Source: Rhodobiaceae bacterium
GTDB lineage: Bacteria > Pseudomonadota > Alphaproteobacteria > Parvibaculales > Parvibaculaceae
Assembly (NCBI GenBank): GCA_021404525.1
Contig: JAAWWE010000002.1
Location: 310,001-374,000, forward strand
DNA: 64,000 nucleotides
Direction of reading: 5' to 3'
Below are positions 18,074 to 50,937 of this stretch, one piece after another (within the stretch, counting starts at the first letter, position 1; every line of letters begins with the position of its first letter). Both the position numbers and the translations under genes were made by a program. The notes under the pieces were generated by a model that searched no databases, was not told the DNA's origin, and worked only from the letters and a program-made list of their open reading frames with translations.

Positions 18074-18170
18074 GGGAGGTTGGCGGTGGACGAGTTTCTC
18101 GCCAACCCGGTCAGGTCCGGAAGGAAGCAGCCGTAACGAGCCCTACTCGGGTCTCTGTTCCAGCCTCCCA
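18074..18170 (+). ncRNA. ffs: Small signal recognition particle RNA (4.5S type)
   Basis: The central loop sequence GGTCAGGTCCGGAAGGAAGCA (18109-18129) is the hallmark of SRP domain IV, where Ffh binds. The ends pair as GGGAGG (18074-18079) with CCTCCC (18164-18169), giving a rod of about 97 nt without an Alu domain, as in proteobacteria. The RNA and Ffh target nascent membrane proteins to FtsY. Position just upstream of dnaX is conserved in alphaproteobacteria as I recall. Confidence 0.95.
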
Positions 18171-18198
18171 CTTAAGAATTCCAGCCCATGCGTCGGAG

Positions 18199-37479: not shown

Positions 37480-39291
37480 TCAGGTTTCATCTTTGCTGGC
37501 GGACCGTTTGAAGATTTTCTCCAGGCCGAGGTTTGAGAAAAGCTCAATCGGCACACCCTGCCGGCGCATGATGACGCCTTGCTGCAGAACAGACAGCAGG
37601 TTGTTCCATGCCCAGTAAATGACCAGACCCGCAGGGAAGCTTGCCAGGATGAAAACGAAGAAGACCGGCATCCAGGTGAAGATCATCTGCTGAGTGGGAT
37701 CAGCTGGCGCCGGGTTCATGCGCTGTTGGACAAACATGGTGATGCCCATAAGGAGCGGCCACACGCCAACCATCAGAAGCGATGGGGGATCCCACGGGAT
37801 CAGTCCGAATAGGTTGAACAATGTTGTCGGGTCGGGCGCTGAGAGGTCCTGGATCCAGCCATAGAAGGGCGCATGGCGCATTTCGATGGTGACAAACAGA
37901 ACCTTATAGAGCGCAAAGAAGACAGGGATCTGAATGAGGACAGGCAGGCAACCGGCAAGCGGGTTCACCTTTTCCTTCTTATAGAGCTCCATGATCTCCT
38001 GCTGTTGCTTCATCTTGTCGTCAGCATATTGATCCCGCAGCTTTTCCATGTCCGGCTGCAGCTTCTTCATCTTGCTCATTGCTTCGTAAGAGCGGTTGGC
38101 AAGCGGGAAGAAGAAGATCTTGATGATGACCGTGACGATCAGAATGGCGATGCCGAAATTGCCGACAATGTCGAAGACGTAATCGAGGCCCAGGAAAAGC
38201 GGCTTGGTAAGGAAGTAGAACCAGCCCCAATCAATCATCAGCTCAAAGCGGAAGATGCCTTCTTCATCATAAGCATCAATCATCTCGACCACTTTGGCAC
38301 CGGCATAAAGCCGCGCTGTATGGTTGAGGGAGGCGCCGGGAGCAGCCGTCAGTCCGTCGACCACCAGATAGTCTGTCTGATAGACATTCTTCCGTGGGTT
38401 CGGCCCCTCAGAGAAGCGCGCATCAAAGTTGACGCCTTGTTCGGGGATGAGAACCGTTGCCCAATATTTATCGGTGATGCCGAGCCAGCCTTCATTGGCA
38501 GTATATTTTATTTCGCGGTCTTCAAGGATCTCATCATAGTCAATCTCGACAAGGCCTTCTTCTTCGCCAAGGACGCCGATCATACCTTCATGCAGAATGA
38601 AGAAGCCTTCAATCTCCGGCGTGCCCGTGCGCGATACCAGGCCATAAGGATAGAGCGTGACAGGTGCGCCAGTATTGTTGGTGACATTCTGGTCGACGGT
38701 GAACATGTAGTTCTCGTCGATCGTGATCGTGCGATTGAAGATGAGCCCTTCGCCATTGTCATATGTCAGCGTGACCGAGCCATTTGCGGCGAGCGATGAG
38801 CCAGCAGGGGCTGTCCAGACCGTGTCACGGCTTGGCAGCTTGAGGCCCGCGGATGCCGGTGCCGACCAACCAAACTCGGCGAAATAGGGAGAGATGGAGT
38901 TCGCGGGGGAGAAGAGGACGATTTCAGGTGAGGTCGGGTCTACCGTTTCGCGGTAAGTGTGCAATTGCAGATCGTCGATCCGTGCGCCTGTGAGCGAGAT
39001 GGAGCCAGCCACAAGATCTGTGTTGATCTGCACGCGCTCGCTTTGTGTGAGTGCAAGATCACGCGGCAGACCTGTGAGTAGAGTGGAATCGCCAAGGTCG
39101 GCGGGGCTATTGGGTCGGCTCTCAAGTACCTGAGGGATTGCCGATTCAGCGGCTGCTTCCTGCGCTGCGGCAATTTCTGCCTGCTGCGCGCGCTCCGCTT
39201 CCATCTTCGGCTCAATAAAGAAATATTGCCATCCCGCAAGAACGGCCATCGATAGGACGGCGGCAAGAAGTAAGTTCCTATTGTCAGACAT
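37480..39291 (-). CDS. yidC: Membrane protein insertase YidC
   Basis: The 603-residue insertase has an N-terminal helix ([19 protein letters not shown]), a large periplasmic beta domain (about 60-350) and the conserved five-helix core from about 360, with [20 protein letters not shown], the coiled hairpin [20 protein letters not shown] and [20 protein letters not shown]. It inserts proteins alone or with Sec. Nine bases separate it from rnpA. Confidence 0.97.
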
Positions 39292-39300
39292 GAACTAAGA

Positions 39301-39687
39301 TCACCCTTGTTTCTGAGATGCCTGTCGCCGATTTTGTGTGTCGCGTGATTTCTGCGCGTGCACTTTGGCGAGAGCCGTTTCGAGATCCCGTGTGAGATCA
39401 ATGTAAGAGCGGGAAATGGTTCCCGCGCGTCCAATAAGGACGTAGTCGTACCCCGGACGGGCGGCAAGTGCCAGAACGTCAGTTGCGACAGAACGCAGCC
39501 GACGTTTCGCCCGATTTCGGATATGGGCTTTGCCCACTTTTTTTGTAACGGTAAAGCCGACGCGAGCCTCTGCATCGAGCTCGGTCTGTGTTCGCTTCTG
39601 GGCCTGAAGCACAAGCCCTGGGGCCGCCCATTTGCGGCCTCTAGCAGCTTTCAGGAAATCGCGGCGGGCCTTGAGGCGCTCCATCAT
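39301..39687 (-). CDS. rnpA: Ribonuclease P protein component
   Basis: From ATG 39687, preceded by AAGGGG at a five-base distance, the protein has 128 residues. The RNP signature is HIRNRAKRRLR, preceded by VGFTVTKKVGKA. It is the protein part of RNase P, which trims the 5' ends of tRNAs. The upstream frame (to 39765) spans a 17-bp tandem repeat and lacks the domain's normal start, so the shorter form is chosen. The C-terminal tail is Gln/Lys/Arg-rich. Confidence 0.95.
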   Translation of the reverse strand: MMERLKARRDFLKAARGRKWAAPGLVLQAQKRTQTELDAEARVGFTVTKKVGKAHIRNRAKRRLRSVATDVLALAARPGYDYVLIGRAGTISRSYIDLTRDLETALAKVHAQKSRDTQNRRQASQKQG

Positions 39688-39703
39688 TGGATCCCCTTGG
39701 GTT

Positions 39704-39737
39704 TTCGAAAATAGCGGGTCTTCGAAAAGAGCGGGTC
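39704..39737. repeat. 17-bp tandem repeat between rpmH and rnpA
   Basis: TTCGAAAATAGCGGGTC (39704-39720) is followed at once by TTCGAAAAGAGCGGGTC (39721-39737), differing at one base. It lies in the rpmH-rnpA gap, upstream of the rnpA start. A small hairpin, GACCC/GGGTC (39770-39788), lies nearer rpmH. Confidence 0.8.
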
Positions 39738-39805
39738 CTCGCAAAGAAAAAGGGGCTCTCCGCATCGCAGACCCTAAAAGAAAGGGTCATCTCGCCCTAA
39801 GGGAG

Positions 39806-39940
39806 TTAAGCGGAAAGCTTCTTACGGCCTTTTGAGCGGCGCGCAGAAAGGATCGCGCGGCCAGCTTTTGTTGCTTTGCGGGCGCGGAAACCATGACGGC
39901 GTTTGCGAACGAGTGCGCTTGGTTGATATGTCCGTTTCAC
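39806..39940 (-). CDS. rpmH: Large-subunit ribosomal protein bL34
   Basis: This 44-residue protein reads [17 protein letters not shown] after the initiator and ends [11 protein letters not shown], matching bL34 over its full length. The start is GTG at 39940. It is the first gene of the rpmH-rnpA-yidC-engB-argB run and has a consensus promoter 99-127 bases upstream of the start. Confidence 0.97.
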
Positions 39941-40326: not shown

Positions 40327-41235
40327 ATGGTCGTAACAGTGACAGAGCGACATTATGAGCGTCTTGGGGGCTCAAAACGGGGTTCCAGGCGGTCGCGGCC
40401 CATTGGGTTGTTCTTTCTAGGTGTAATCGCCTTTGTTTGGCTCTTGATTGGTGCGACCCAGGTTCCGGCGGCAGATGCCTGGACCAGATGGAGCGCTTAT
40501 GAGGAGAGTTCGATCGTGACCATAGATCATTCTGACTGGCAGGCTCTCTTAGATGCCTATCTCGTCCCCGGCACGGATGGCGAGGCCAACAAAGTCGACT
40601 ATGCCAGCCTGGCCGCGAGTGAAGCAGACCGCGACAAGCTGGAGCTCTACATCACGAGCCTGGAGGCGGTGGAAGTAGATGCGCTCAACAAGAATGAGCA
40701 ATTTGCCTTCTGGGCAAACCTCTACAATGCTGCAACAGTGCGTGTGATCCTTGATCACTACCCCGTCAGCTCCATCCGTAAGATTAGTATCTCGCCGGGC
40801 TTCTTCTCAACCGGGCCTTGGGGCGCGAAGCTGGTGACTGTTGATGGTGAGCGTCTGACGCTGGATGATATTGAGCATCGGATTTTGCGGCCCATCTGGA
40901 AGGATCCCAGGGTCCACTATGCGGTGAATTGTGCCTCTATTGGCTGTCCCAATCTTCCAACAAAACCGTTTACCGGGAAAACACTCGAGGCAGATCTGGA
41001 ATCTGCCGCCCGCGCTTACATCAATAGTCCCCGCGGCGCATCTTTCCAGAGCGGTTCACTCCGTGTTTCCAAGATTTATGATTGGTACTCGGAAGACTTC
41101 GGAAAAGGCACGGCCAATCTCATCGCTCATCTGAAATCCTATGCCGAAGGTGATCTTGCTGAAAAACTCGAAAACACAACACGTGTGCAGGGATACGACT
41201 ATGATTGGTCCCTGAACGACACGTCCGGCTCGTAA
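40327..41235 (+). CDS. DUF547 protein with N-terminal membrane anchor
   Basis: The start is ATG 40327, with AAGGAGG six bases upstream (302 residues). A membrane segment (about 26-46, IGLFFLGVIAFVWLLIGA) precedes the DUF547 domain, recognised by NEQFAFWANLYNAATVRVI, then RILRPIWKDPRVHYAVNCAS and IGCPNLPTKPF. The FWANLYNA and NCAS..CP elements resemble transglutaminase-like Cys-His centres, but no activity is established. It opens a same-strand run with the VTT protein and the flavoprotein. Confidence 0.88.
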   Translation: MVVTVTERHYERLGGSKRGSRRSRPIGLFFLGVIAFVWLLIGATQVPAADAWTRWSAYEESSIVTIDHSDWQALLDAYLVPGTDGEANKVDYASLAASEADRDKLELYITSLEAVEVDALNKNEQFAFWANLYNAATVRVILDHYPVSSIRKISISPGFFSTGPWGAKLVTVDGERLTLDDIEHRILRPIWKDPRVHYAVNCASIGCPNLPTKPFTGKTLEADLESAARAYINSPRGASFQSGSLRVSKIYDWYSEDFGKGTANLIAHLKSYAEGDLAEKLENTTRVQGYDYDWSLNDTSGS

Positions 41236-41261
41236 AAAGCCGACTGGGAGGAAAAGTAGAT

Positions 41262-41993
41262 ATGAGTGACGAAAGTTCAGACACAAAACAATCAGGCTTT
41301 AGCCTCGGCAGGCTGGTGCCTTTGGTGGTCCTCGCTGCGGGGCTTGTCGCCTTCTTTGTCTTGGATCTCGGGCAATATGTGACCTTGGATGCACTGAAGG
41401 AGAACCGCGAGTTTTTGCAAACCTTCGTGGCGGAGAACACAGCACTCGCGTTCACAGTCTATATGGCGGTCTACACGGTCATGGTCGCCTTCTCATTGCC
41501 AGGTGCGCTGATCGCAACGCTCACCGGGGGCTTTCTCTTCGGAACCATCTTCGGTGGGCTGGCAACCGTCGTTGCAGCGACCATCGGGGCGACCATCGTC
41601 TTCCTGATCGCAAAGACAGCGCTGGGCGATACCCTGCGCGCAAAAGCAGGACCGGGAATTCAGAAGATGGAAGCCGGCTTTCAGAAGAACGCGTTTTCTT
41701 ACCTGATGGTGCTGCGACTGGTCCCGCTCTTTCCGTTCTTCCTTGTTAATTTGGCGCCGGCTTTTCTGGGCGTGAAGCTGCGCACCTTCATGGTGGCGAC
41801 TTTCTTTGGCATCATTCCCGGTACTTTCGTATTTGCGAGTGTGGGAAACGGTCTGGGTGCGATTTTTGATGAAGGCGGGGAGCCTAATCTCGGCATCATT
41901 TTCCAGCCGGAAGTGTTAGGGCCAATCCTGGCGCTCGCGGCGCTGTCGCTGGTTCCCGTCATTTACAAACGTTTTTCAAAAGACGAAGCATAA
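41262..41993 (+). CDS. TVP38/TMEM64 (VTT-domain) membrane protein
   Basis: From ATG 41262 (GGGAGG upstream) the product has 243 residues and about five to six helices. The VTT/SNARE-associated core is seen in AFSLPGALIATLTGGFLFG, the reentrant-like FGGLATVVAATIGATIVFLI, and LMVLRLVPLFPFFLVNLAPA followed by FLGVKLRTFMVATFFGIIPG. Family members (DedA-like fold) move lipids or undecaprenyl carriers in some cases; the substrate here is unknown. It lies 26 bp after DUF547 and 99 bp before the flavoprotein gene. Confidence 0.92.
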   Translation: MSDESSDTKQSGFSLGRLVPLVVLAAGLVAFFVLDLGQYVTLDALKENREFLQTFVAENTALAFTVYMAVYTVMVAFSLPGALIATLTGGFLFGTIFGGLATVVAATIGATIVFLIAKTALGDTLRAKAGPGIQKMEAGFQKNAFSYLMVLRLVPLFPFFLVNLAPAFLGVKLRTFMVATFFGIIPGTFVFASVGNGLGAIFDEGGEPNLGIIFQPEVLGPILALAALSLVPVIYKRFSKDEA

Positions 41994-42007
41994 ATAGAGC
42001 GCAATCA

Positions 42008-42029
42008 AGAAAAGTGTGGGCGGTTTTCT
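42008..42029. repeat. Degenerate copy of the palindromic repeat, copy 4
   Basis: Only the inner stem remains: AGAAAA (42008-42013) and TTTTCT (42024-42029) around GTGTGGGCGG, the same loop type as in copies 2 and 3. The outer arms have decayed. It lies in the 99-bp gap between the VTT and flavoprotein genes. Confidence 0.55.
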
Positions 42030-42092
42030 GCCAAGACTTAGGCGAATGCGCGATTAGAAAAACTCCTCTGTCTGGGAGTGTGAGGAAACATC

Positions 42093-43517
42093 ATGAGCAA
42101 TGTGATTGAAGCGGACATTTGTGTCATTGGAGGCGGCTCAGGCGGCCTGTCTGTTGCGGCAGGGGCCGTACAGATGGGGGCGAAAGTTGTTCTCATCGAA
42201 AAGGGCAAGATGGGAGGCGACTGTCTGAACTATGGTTGCGTTCCCTCCAAAGCACTGATTGCCGCTGCCAAACACGCCCATGGCATGGGCGACGGCGAAG
42301 CCTTTGGCGTGAAGCCACAAACACTCGAAGTCGACTTCGGCCGGGTTCATGACCACATCCATGAAGTGATCGCCGGGATCGCGCCCGTGGACAGCGTTGA
42401 GCGGTTTGAAGGCCTTGGCGTTCAGGTCATTCAGGCTGCTGCGCGCTTTGCAAGTCCGCAGACAGTGCAGGCGGGCGATCAGACCATCAAGGCCCGCCGT
42501 TTTGTCATTGCGACGGGATCGTCGCCCGCGGTGCCACCCATCCCTGGGCTCGATACCGTGCCGTTCCTCACCAACGAAACCATGTTCGACCTGAAAGAAC
42601 GCCCGGACCATCTGATCATTGTTGGTGGCGGCCCGATCGGAATGGAGCTCGCCCAGGCGCACCGACGCCTTGGAGCAAAAGTGACCGTGCTCGAAGGTCT
42701 GAAAGCGCTCGGAAAAGACGACCCGGAACTGACCTCGTTGGTGCTTGATGCCATTCGTGAGGATGGTGTCGACATTCGTGAAGGTGCGAAGGTTACCTCT
42801 GTTGCAAAAGACGGCGACGGGGTTAGCGTCTCCATCGAGACAGATGCAGGCGAGGAAACCGTGTCCGGGTCGCACTTGCTCATGGCGGTGGGCAGGCGCC
42901 CCAATGTTGATGGCCTCGACCTTGAAAATGCAGGCATCAAATATGAGCGCACAGGCATCACAGTGGATGCGCGTCTCAGGACCACAAACAAAAAGATCTT
43001 TGCCATCGGAGATGTGGCCGGGGGGCTGCAGTTCACCCACGTGGCCGGGTATCACGCTGGTATCGTAATCCGAAACATTTTGTTCCGTATTCCGGCCAAG
43101 GCGGACCATTCGTCCATTCCGTGGGCCACCTATACTGACCCAGAACTGGCCCATGTGGGTGAGACAGAGGAAGAAGCCCGCAAAAAACACGGCAAGATTG
43201 AAGTGTTACGCTGGCCGCTTGCTGAGAATGATCGGGCGCAGGCCGAACGCCGCACCCGTGGCCTCGTCAAGGTCGTGACAGACAGTCATGGCCGTATTCT
43301 GGGCGCAAGCATTGTGGGGCCACATGCAGGCGACTTGCTGCAACCCTGGGTGCTTGCCAAGTCGCAAGGACTCAAAATCGGCGCCATGGCCGGTGCAGTT
43401 GCCCCATATCCAACATTGACGGAAATCAGCAAACGGGCTGCCGGGTCCTATTACACACCGACCCTCTTTAGTTGGAAGACCAGAGCAATTGTGAAGTTCC
43501 TCGGCCTGTTCGGATAG
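42093..43517 (+). CDS. MerA-like FAD/NAD(P) disulfide oxidoreductase
   Basis: The 474-residue flavoprotein has the FAD motif GGGSGGLSVAAGAVQMGA, the redox disulfide Cys44/Cys49 in GGDCLNYGCVPSK, a central NAD(P) motif IIVGGGPIGMELAQAHRRLG and the second FAD motif KIFAIGDVAGG. At the C-terminus, where lipoamide dehydrogenases have His-Pro-Thr..Glu, it has Tyr439 (APYPTLTE), as in mercuric reductase. It lacks both the N-terminal HMA domain and the C-terminal Cys pair of true MerA. Reduction of an unknown disulfide or quinone is more likely than of Hg(II). Confidence 0.88.
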   Translation: MSNVIEADICVIGGGSGGLSVAAGAVQMGAKVVLIEKGKMGGDCLNYGCVPSKALIAAAKHAHGMGDGEAFGVKPQTLEVDFGRVHDHIHEVIAGIAPVDSVERFEGLGVQVIQAAARFASPQTVQAGDQTIKARRFVIATGSSPAVPPIPGLDTVPFLTNETMFDLKERPDHLIIVGGGPIGMELAQAHRRLGAKVTVLEGLKALGKDDPELTSLVLDAIREDGVDIREGAKVTSVAKDGDGVSVSIETDAGEETVSGSHLLMAVGRRPNVDGLDLENAGIKYERTGITVDARLRTTNKKIFAIGDVAGGLQFTHVAGYHAGIVIRNILFRIPAKADHSSIPWATYTDPELAHVGETEEEARKKHGKIEVLRWPLAENDRAQAERRTRGLVKVVTDSHGRILGASIVGPHAGDLLQPWVLAKSQGLKIGAMAGAVAPYPTLTEISKRAAGSYYTPTLFSWKTRAIVKFLGLFG

Positions 43518-43535
43518 GGTCCCTTTCCGCTATAC

Positions 43536-45062
43536 TTGATGCCAGCGCATAAGTGCCGCGCGATGGAAAACAGGCGGAACATGGATCGCGAGAAGAGCGA
43601 TGTGACGGATGCAGATAAGGGTGACGGGCCGCGGGCTGCCGCGGCGCCGGTCGCGCGTCTTGTCGCTCCTTTGCGCCGCAGCCTCTCCGCGCAACTCCTG
43701 GTTCTCACAGTTCTGTTTGTGATGCTTGCCGAAGTGCTGATTTATGTTCCGTCTCTCTCAAATTTCAGAGATAGCTGGATCAAGCAGCGTCTTGCACGGG
43801 CGCAGATCGCAACGCTTGCGCTCGAAGCAACCCCCGACAATATGGTGGCCAATACCCTTCGCGACGAACTTCTGACCAACGCGGAAGCCTTTGCGGTGGT
43901 TTTGCATAGAAATGCAGCGCGTCGATTGATCCTTCGAGACGACATGCCCCCCGCAATCGATGCGACGTATGATCTGCGTGATGCGACGTTCCTCGACATC
44001 ATCATGGACATGTTTGACTGTTTGATGGCGGAAGACGGCCGCACCATTCGGGTGATCGGCAAGCCACGCTTTGAAGGTGGCGACTTCATCGAAATCGTTT
44101 TTGACGAAACGCCCCTCCGGCAGGCCATGCTCGATTTCTCAACCAACATCCTGAACTTGTCGATCCTGATCTCCATCATCACAGCCTCCCTTGTATTTTT
44201 TGCCCTCAATTTTTTCTTGGTTCGTCCCATGCGCCGGATCACGGAAAATATGGTGGCGTTTAGCAAAAAACCGGATGATGCATCGCGGGTGATCGAGCCC
44301 TCAACACGCCTCGACGAAATCGGTGTCGCAGAACGGGAACTGGCAGATCTCCAGACGCAGGTGCGCTCGACACTGAACCAACAGGCGCGCCTTGCCTCTT
44401 TGGGAACGGCCATCAGCAAGATCAATCACGACCTGCGGAATATTCTGGCGAGCACGCAGCTTATTTCAGACCGCCTTGGCGGTGTGGACGATCCGACAGT
44501 GCAAAGTCTCGCTCCCCGGCTGTTTGCGTCGATCGACCGTGCCATTCAGCTCTGCACCAACACGCTTAAGTTCGGTAGCAGTGAAGAAGCGCCGCCCTCC
44601 CGTCGTCCGGTTGCGCTAAAAAACCTCGCGACCGAGGCGATGGAAGCAATCGGCCTCGAAGAAGACAGCCCCGTCAGCGTCCGCATTGAGATTGCCGACG
44701 AGATGGAAATTGACGCTGATCCAGATCATTTGTTTCGAGTTCTTCTCAACCTTGGGAGAAATGCGGCACAGGCCATGGAATCTGGCGGAGAGATTTCTCT
44801 ATCGGCCGTCAATGATGTAGACTCGGTCACCATCGAGTTAGCTGATACGGGTCCTGGTATTCCTGATGCTGCCCGCGACCGGCTGTTCCAGCCCTTTGGG
44901 GGCACAACCCGCCAAGGTGGTACCGGGCTCGGCCTTGCGATTTCCGCAGATCTTGTACGCGCGCATGGCGGCGCGCTGGAACTGGTCGAAACAGGTGCCA
45001 ACGGCACCCGGTTTAGAATATGCATACCTCACCGCAAGGACATGGTCCGCGCAGCGCAGTAA
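43536..45062 (+). CDS. Two-helix membrane sensor histidine kinase
   Basis: Up to 508 residues (TTG 43536; ATG 43563 or 43581 are also possible starts). Two membrane helices (about 52-71 and 205-230) enclose a periplasmic sensor of about 130 residues without a recognised domain. A HAMP-like linker, then His298 in ISKINHDLRNIL, and an ATPase domain with LLNLGRNAAQAM (N box), ADTGPGIPD (G1) and GGTGLGLAIS (G2) follow. No response regulator gene is adjacent. The 18-bp gap after the flavoprotein gene suggests cotranscription. Confidence 0.88.
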   Translation: MMPAHKCRAMENRRNMDREKSDVTDADKGDGPRAAAAPVARLVAPLRRSLSAQLLVLTVLFVMLAEVLIYVPSLSNFRDSWIKQRLARAQIATLALEATPDNMVANTLRDELLTNAEAFAVVLHRNAARRLILRDDMPPAIDATYDLRDATFLDIIMDMFDCLMAEDGRTIRVIGKPRFEGGDFIEIVFDETPLRQAMLDFSTNILNLSILISIITASLVFFALNFFLVRPMRRITENMVAFSKKPDDASRVIEPSTRLDEIGVAERELADLQTQVRSTLNQQARLASLGTAISKINHDLRNILASTQLISDRLGGVDDPTVQSLAPRLFASIDRAIQLCTNTLKFGSSEEAPPSRRPVALKNLATEAMEAIGLEEDSPVSVRIEIADEMEIDADPDHLFRVLLNLGRNAAQAMESGGEISLSAVNDVDSVTIELADTGPGIPDAARDRLFQPFGGTTRQGGTGLGLAISADLVRAHGGALELVETGANGTRFRICIPHRKDMVRAAQ

Positions 45063-45121: not shown

Positions 45122-46120
45122 ATGGAACACATAAAAGACGGTTCACGCGTGCTTGTTGCGGACATCGGCGGCACCTATGCGCGCTTCTCCTACGCTGACG
45201 CCTCGCTCGGCGTGTCCTCCCTCACACCACCCTTTGTCTTGGAGACAGAGGGGTTTGCGAGTTTTGGTGACGTTCTTCAGGAAGTGATGGATGAGACGGG
45301 CCGTCCTGGGGTGAACGCTGCAGCGATCTGCGGCGCTGGCCCGGTGGTTGGAGACGAAGGCTCTGCAGCGATTGATATGACCAACTGCCCCTGGACGCTG
45401 ACCGAGGCAGAGCTGAAGGAACGGCTTGGGACTTCCCGAGTGCGACTCGTCAACGACTTTGCCGCAATTGCTCATGCGCTTCCGCTGTTTGACGATGAAG
45501 AACTCCTGCAACTTGGCACAGGCGCGCCGGACAGAGAGGGACCGCTTGCGGTACTGGGGGCCGGGACCGGGCTCGGCGTCGCCGGATTGGTGCCGGACGG
45601 GAAGGGAAGCTACGCACTGATTGATGGTGAAGGCGGGCACGCAGATATTGCGCCTGCAAATACGCGCGAGATCGCTATCTATGAACGTTTGCTACGTCGC
45701 TTTGGGCATGTCAACGCGGAAACAATTCTCTCTGGCAGTGGCCTTGAAGCACTCCATGATGCCCTGTGTGAGATGGAGGGACTTAAGAGCGAACCCGTCA
45801 GCGCCGCAGAAATAGCTGCGCGCGCGGCAACAGGGGGCGAACCAGTCAGTGCAGAAGCTGTGCACTGCTTCACCAGTTGGTTAGGCGCAGCAGCTGCCAA
45901 TGTCGCGCTCACGATGGGCGCGACAGGCGGTGTTTACATTGCCGGTGGTATCGTTCCGCGTTGGGGCGGCCTCTTCGAGGCGAACCGGTTCCGCACGCGG
46001 TTTGAGGACCGCGGGAAAATAAGTGCATACGTGAAGCCGATCCCGACCTATCTTGTCGTGGCACCGGATCCGGCGCTTAAGGGACTGGTGAAGATCGCAT
46101 CGGGCCTGCTGGCAACCTAG
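45122..46120 (+). CDS. glk: Glucokinase (ROK-unrelated Glk family)
   Basis: The start is ATG 45122 after an AGAGG site (332 residues). Glk features are LVADIGGTYARFSYAD (phosphate loop), RLVNDFAAIAHAL, LGAGTGLGVAGLVPDG and IDGEGGHADIAPANTRE with sugar-contact residues. It phosphorylates glucose to glucose-6-phosphate. It follows the kinase gene by 59 bp; whether they share a transcript is open. Confidence 0.93.
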   Translation: MEHIKDGSRVLVADIGGTYARFSYADASLGVSSLTPPFVLETEGFASFGDVLQEVMDETGRPGVNAAAICGAGPVVGDEGSAAIDMTNCPWTLTEAELKERLGTSRVRLVNDFAAIAHALPLFDDEELLQLGTGAPDREGPLAVLGAGTGLGVAGLVPDGKGSYALIDGEGGHADIAPANTREIAIYERLLRRFGHVNAETILSGSGLEALHDALCEMEGLKSEPVSAAEIAARAATGGEPVSAEAVHCFTSWLGAAAANVALTMGATGGVYIAGGIVPRWGGLFEANRFRTRFEDRGKISAYVKPIPTYLVVAPDPALKGLVKIASGLLAT

Positions 46121-50860: not shown

Positions 50861-50937
50861 GCACCGGTAGCTCAGCTGGATAGAGTACTTGACTACGAAT
50901 CAAGGGGTCGGGAGTTCGAATCTTCCCCGGTGCGCCA
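50861..50937 (+). tRNA. tRNA-Arg (anticodon ACG)
   Basis: The 77-nt cloverleaf folds fully: acceptor GCACCGG with CCGGTGC, D arm GCTC/GAGT, anticodon stem CTTGA/TCAAG with loop CTACGAA (anticodon ACG), and T arm GGGAG/CTTCC around TTCGAAT. CCA is encoded. After A34-to-I editing it reads CGU, CGC and CGA. Confidence 0.96.

Follow-up and report, generated by a model that had tools for sequence, protein, structure and literature searches.

A recurrent alphaproteobacterial gene row divergent from yidC contains a COG0398-like VTT protein and a disulfide oxidoreductase as its probable working pair

A row of four same-strand genes, encoding a DUF547 protein, a TVP38/VTT membrane protein (VTT), a flavoprotein of the disulfide oxidoreductase type and a sensor histidine kinase, was analysed in a window of 64,000 nt, the whole stretch of DNA under study, from a Rhodobiaceae bacterium (assembly GCA_021404525.1, contig JAAWWE010000002.1, positions 310,001 to 374,000). 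Comparison of sequences and gene neighbourhoods indicates that the row is an old and recurrent alphaproteobacterial operon with VTT and the flavoprotein as its working pair, and the grouping of the genes is far beyond chance. The reading preferred here, to which a probability of roughly 0.45 is given, is that an ancestral alphaproteobacterial operon encodes an NADH reductase that docks on the membrane and acts together with a lipid scramblase, its core being a membrane redox-lipid pair. The genes of the locus are the following (window coordinates):

37480..39291, minus strand: yidC (ORF, named by eye), divergent neighbour and marker of the ancestral place
39301-39765, upstream of yidC: rnpA (ORF, named by eye)
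about 39805-39940, upstream of yidC: rpmH (ORF, named by eye)
40327..41235, plus strand: DUF547 protein, 302 aa (PF04784, 3.1e-26; 92.3 bits, cut-off 27)
41262..41993, plus strand: VTT/DedA-superfamily membrane protein, COG0398-like, 243 aa (PF09335, 2e-21; 77.2 bits, cut-off 33.9)
42093..43517, plus strand: FAD/NAD(P)-disulfide oxidoreductase, MerA-like, 474 aa (Pyr_redox_2, 9.8e-64; Pyr_redox_dim, 1.9e-27)
43581..45062, start uncertain, plus strand: orphan sensor histidine kinase (HATPase_c, 7.5e-23; 81.5 bits)
45122..46120, plus strand: glucokinase (TIGR00749, 248 bits, cut-off 225)

The four ORFs were confirmed at the coordinates of a preliminary description of this DNA, whose family calls were matched by the domain profiles. 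Its gaps of 26 bp (DUF547-VTT) and 99 bp (VTT-flavoprotein) are correct, and its third gap of 18 bp holds for a kinase start at TTG 43536; it becomes 63 bp with ATG 43581, in front of which the better ribosome binding site (AGGCGGAAC) stands, and 43539 and 43563 are further alternative starts. The DUF547 ATG is preceded by the Shine-Dalgarno sequence AAGGAGG, and the four genes are probably co-transcribed, divergently from argB-yihA-yidC-rnpA-rpmH (gene names by eye from the ORFs). Glucokinase follows 60 bp 3′ of the kinase gene and is itself followed by a convergent gamma-glutamyltransferase gene; read-through from the kinase gene is possible, and glucokinase is on the same strand in only 6 of 81 loci and lies outside the conserved core. 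An Rfam scan gave no element upstream of the run, and the only two matches in the whole window were a bacterial small SRP RNA and a tRNA gene (18075-18171, 50861-50934).

Conservation of the neighbourhood was followed in two sets of loci in which few genomes overlap. Set 1 was obtained by searching 144 alphaproteobacterial genomes for the flavoprotein and comprises 81 loci, including that of the window, with flanks of about 7 kb. Set 2 consists of 80 loci from named genomes, including Ruegeria, Shimia, Marivita, Roseibium, Mesorhizobium, Hyphomicrobium, Methylobacterium and Roseomonas as well as the gammaproteobacterium Piscirickettsia. VTT adjoins the flavoprotein gene in 68/81 loci of set 1, the other 13 having no adjacent VTT, and in 77/80 of set 2. 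The kinase gene accompanies the flavoprotein gene in 45/81 and 65/80 loci, a yidC homolog in 43/81 and 42/80, and DUF547 in 11-12/81, depending on the distance allowed, and 11/80. Within 6 kb, 44 flavoprotein-kinase pairs were observed against 0.21 expected and 12 DUF547-flavoprotein pairs against 0.2 expected under random placement; because the loci share descent, the P values of these pairs exclude random placement only and do not count independent events. The families that the preliminary description had seen side by side at one locus thus co-occur beyond chance. The simplest account starts from DUF547, VTT, flavoprotein and kinase in one ancestral row divergent from yidC, followed by step-by-step loss and by relocation of the core, with the kinase as an independent resident.

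The strongest evidence for a task shared by VTT and the flavoprotein is their repeated re-pairing. On a FastTree flavoprotein tree of 100 rows with many open forks, 12 changes were counted between the order VTT-flavoprotein and the reverse order, at least 6 of which are forced by the starred branches, and uninterrupted fusions with VTT first were found in 25 of 160 Proteobacteria. Repeated order flips together with fusions argue that the two proteins are functionally coupled. The preliminary description had mentioned such fusions and had extended a shared task to the set; the fusions have indeed been published, VTT-flavoprotein (PF07992/PF02852) being the commonest COG0398 fusion (Todor, Herrera & Gross, mBio 2023, PMC10127716), and the shared task stands for VTT and the flavoprotein and is weak for the kinase. 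Among 20 relocated loci, in which the flavoprotein gene precedes VTT, DUF547 is present in 4 and the kinase in none. The relocated modules stand with genes for TIGR04283 or TIGR04282 glycosyltransferases, radical SAM proteins or CDP-alcohol phosphatidyltransferases, neighbours that point to lipid or sugar-lipid chemistry. The CDP-alcohol phosphatidyltransferase-like gene lies near the relocated pair at four loci and was confirmed by PF01066 for one of them (L119) and named by similarity for the others (L102, L106, L107), which is a hint of phospholipid chemistry. A cytochrome b561 gene adjoins one further relocated copy (L103).

The redox pair of the flavoprotein is formed by C44 and C49, and the CxxxxC motif is kept in 159/161 flavoproteins. 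Tyr439 (Tyr439-Pro-Thr), likewise kept in 159/161, takes the place of the catalytic His found in lipoamide dehydrogenase (Lpd) and aligns with the Tyr of APYLT of mercuric reductase (MerA) in the alignment to 5x1y. A His-Glu flavin disulfide reductase of the Lpd or glutathione reductase (GR) kind was rejected, since the His of HPTxxE is replaced by Tyr439, though Glu444 is retained in the alignment. The solved structure closest to the flavoprotein is the mercuric reductase 5x1y (282 bits). The flavoprotein scores 389.9 bits against the MerA model TIGR02053, with a cut-off of 454.45, and falls below every NCBIfam equivalog cut-off shown; the C-terminal Cys-Cys pair of MerA occurs in 0/161 flavoproteins and an HMA domain is absent, and identity as a mercuric reductase was rejected on these grounds. 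The place of the MerA Cys-Cys tail is occupied by a conserved, basic and amphipathic C-terminal tail (LFSxRTRxxVRFL), which was found in 153 of the 161 flavoproteins scored, with a median moment of 0.56. The moment is weak (0.24-0.26) in the two VTT-fused flavoproteins, as would be expected if the tail served as a membrane anchor and fusion made it dispensable. In this superfamily, a preference for NADH is indicated by an acidic residue that closes the second beta strand of the NAD domain; such a residue, read by eye, follows VTV in 20 of 24 cases and suggests that the flavoprotein uses NADH.

Judged by motif, the window VTT is COG0398-like. In the alignment, read by eye, its first re-entrant stretch is free of D/E and there is one invariant Arg, Arg152 in LRLVPxFPF, in agreement with the published distinction that COG0398 proteins, compared with the COG0586 UndP flippases, lack acidic residues at the tip of the first re-entrant stretch and have fewer basic ones at the second (PMC10127716). 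No bacterial function is known for the COG0398 DedA proteins, and members not matched to the window VTT gene were reported to be essential in Caulobacter crescentus and Dinoroseobacter shibae (PMC10127716). By analogy with eukaryotic relatives, COG0398 proteins may be scramblases.

The DUF547 protein has a single N-terminal membrane helix (signal or anchor, residues 27-41 in the model), and its main domain is presumed to be periplasmic. Cys202, Cys207, His197 and N131xYN are invariant in the alignment. The AlphaFold model is confident (pLDDT 89, pTM 0.83), and a fold search of it against solved structures gave nothing similar (best E 1.4, TM at most 0.22), so that a catalytic analogy cannot be drawn; judging from the model, the fold may be undescribed experimentally. 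A transglutaminase-like fold was considered and received no support from this search. Within the 144 alphaproteobacterial genomes, the family has 57 copies in 44 genomes, and operon and non-operon copies are mixed together in a tree of weak support. Its place in the loci varies (5′ of VTT, between the flavoprotein gene and VTT, or following VTT, the flavoprotein gene or the kinase gene), and together with the counts given above this bears out DUF547 as a recurrent partner.

The kinase has a sensor domain of about 115 aa and of mixed alpha/beta structure between two transmembrane helices, a long helix, an HDLRN box and HATPase_c (model pLDDT 80). Pfam HisKA did not match, and the call as a histidine kinase rests on HATPase_c and the HDLRN-type phospho-acceptor box, H288-D-L-x-N, which is invariant in 21 homologs. 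No response regulator is encoded in the operon. A single-copy ortholog of the kinase is present in 71 of the 144 genomes. Of 22 loci read in which it is away from the flavoprotein gene, 15 still have it divergent from yidC, either on its own or accompanied by VTT or DUF547 only (L140, L144, L240, L242, L249). Due to the fact that it never accompanies the relocated pair and persists alone at yidC, the kinase is the weakest member of the set, and the case for it as part of one functional set is weak. The divergent arrangement of this orphan kinase and yidC is thus kept across Alphaproteobacteria even after partner loss (L236-L255, L140, L144), with no response regulator seen beside it.

A possible link to arsenosugar genes was followed separately. 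The 'arsenosugar' glycosyltransferase TIGR04283 is present in 57/144 genomes, within 6 kb of a DUF547 gene in 5 of them, including the source genome, and within 6 kb of the flavoprotein gene in 4 (4 pairs among 63 glycosyltransferase copies); a link in so few genomes may describe a subtype and not the window operon. ArsS (TIGR04167) occurs in only 2/144 genomes, exactly the two that carry a VTT-flavoprotein fusion (G012, G127), directly downstream of the fusion, and had no match in the source genome. Among 59 further genomes it lies at most 3 kb from the fused gene in four (G253, G212, G244, G233), and in G161 its neighbour is a split gene. At a Methylobacterium locus (L175), flavoprotein, VTT and DUF547 stand with TIGR04283, TIGR04282, a rhodanese, a radical SAM protein and a TIGR03169 oxidoreductase. 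The arsenosugar neighbourhood mentioned in the preliminary description is therefore found mainly for the fused subtype and not for the window operon; its remark that arsenosugar genes are not seen here was accurate for ArsS, though a second DUF547 gene of the source genome (G000:C3, L003, 8235-10494) is convergent with TIGR04283 and a DUF3047 gene. The same DUF547-TIGR04283 pairing is present in G001, G053, G064 and G123.

According to the preferred reading, the flavoprotein would dock on the cytoplasmic membrane face via its C-terminal tail, or by fusion to VTT, and would pass electrons from NADH via FAD to Cys44-Cys49 in order to reduce a membrane-resident substrate. VTT, a putative scramblase of the COG0398 type, would bind or flip this lipid-type substrate, and the anchored, periplasm-facing DUF547 protein would act on the same product at the opposite membrane face. 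The kinase, as an older resident of the yidC locus, may sense the state of the envelope and would not be needed by the module. A more specific version, in which the Tyr-modified disulfide centre reduces a lipid-linked substrate, the scramblase flips it to the periplasmic DUF547 protein, and VTT is the very COG0398 protein that was reported to be essential in Caulobacter and Dinoroseobacter, is doubtful.

The nearest rival is that the flavoprotein is a type-II-like NADH:quinone oxidoreductase which balances NADH and quinone pools in aerobic cells, with VTT merely as its platform. This is conceivable, if on the unlikely side: a quinone acceptor fits nearly as well as a lipid, the membrane-type tail, the NADH-type motif and the cytochrome b561 neighbour suit it, and COG0398 is associated with aerobic lineages (PMC10127716). 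However, a plain quinone reductase does not need the invariant CxxxxC, and the DUF547 and glycosyltransferase neighbours are left unexplained. Shared ancestry only, that is a slowly rearranging yidC neighbourhood whose genes have no common task, is the favoured reading for the kinase, which stays there in genomes lacking VTT and the flavoprotein, and half of the loci occupy this same place. As an account of the whole set it is improbable, because VTT and the flavoprotein move together, in both orders, and fuse, and DUF547 goes along in some relocated loci.

Three further proposals have little weight. Metal(loid) detoxification by a mercuric-reductase-like enzyme with a membrane partner draws on the 5x1y match and the MerA-type Tyr439, and is very unlikely in view of the TIGR02053 score, the missing Cys-Cys pair and HMA domain, and an operon free of mer, ars and transporter genes. 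Slightly less probable again is a role in arsenosugar biosynthesis: in 6 genomes the distance between the fused gene and ArsS is about 0.1-3 kb, and the second DUF547 gene adjoins TIGR04283, but most loci lack any arsenosugar gene, and for the window operon the proposal was rejected as the source genome lacks ArsS. Hardly credible is a DsbD/CcdA-like thiol relay from the cytoplasmic dithiol through VTT to the Cys pair of DUF547, which would use Cys pairs on both sides of the membrane (C44/C49 and C202/C207). The window VTT has zero cysteines, 64 of 145 VTT domains are likewise free of them, and Cys does not exceed 20% in any alignment column; the lack of a conserved membrane Cys excludes a relay of this type.

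The redox-lipid reading thus builds on a pairing of VTT and flavoprotein that was already known from fusions (PMC10127716). The DUF547/yidC-linked operon form is absent from that paper, and in the open-access literature searched no description was found of this form, of the separation of kinase and core, or of an ArsS link concentrated on fusions; beyond the mBio 2023 paper, no paper was found there that joins DUF547 with VTT or TVP38 with mercuric reductase. The evolutionary record points to a specific NADH flavoprotein as the partner of COG0398 and to DUF547 as an accessory, and it sets the core apart from the arsenosugar subtype as well as from the kinase linked to yidC. An orphan membrane family thereby becomes a two-protein system open to testing, in which the residues to be mutated are defined.

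Compared with known systems, the window flavoprotein shares CxxxxC, the overall domain layout and a Tyr in place of the catalytic His with MerA, and differs from it by the missing HMA domain and C-terminal Cys-Cys pair, the score below the family cut-off, the NADH-type motif and the amphipathic tail. With lipoamide dehydrogenase and glutathione reductase it has the domain layout and CxxxxC in common, and with Lpd also the NADH-type motif, whereas the His of their His-Glu pair is Tyr in nearly all of the flavoproteins. Clusters with TIGR04282, TIGR04283 or ArsS contain VTT, the flavoprotein and DUF547 in several genomes (Methylobacterium L175, Roseomonas L187/L195, G012, G127), whereas the window operon is without any of the former genes. 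The fused COG0398-PF07992/PF02852 proteins (PMC10127716) pair the same two families, with VTT N-terminal and the flavoprotein C-terminal in the fusions read here, and their flavoprotein domain is 42-43% identical to the window flavoprotein; in the window, by contrast, the two are separate genes that stand together with DUF547 and the kinase at a conserved place divergent from yidC.
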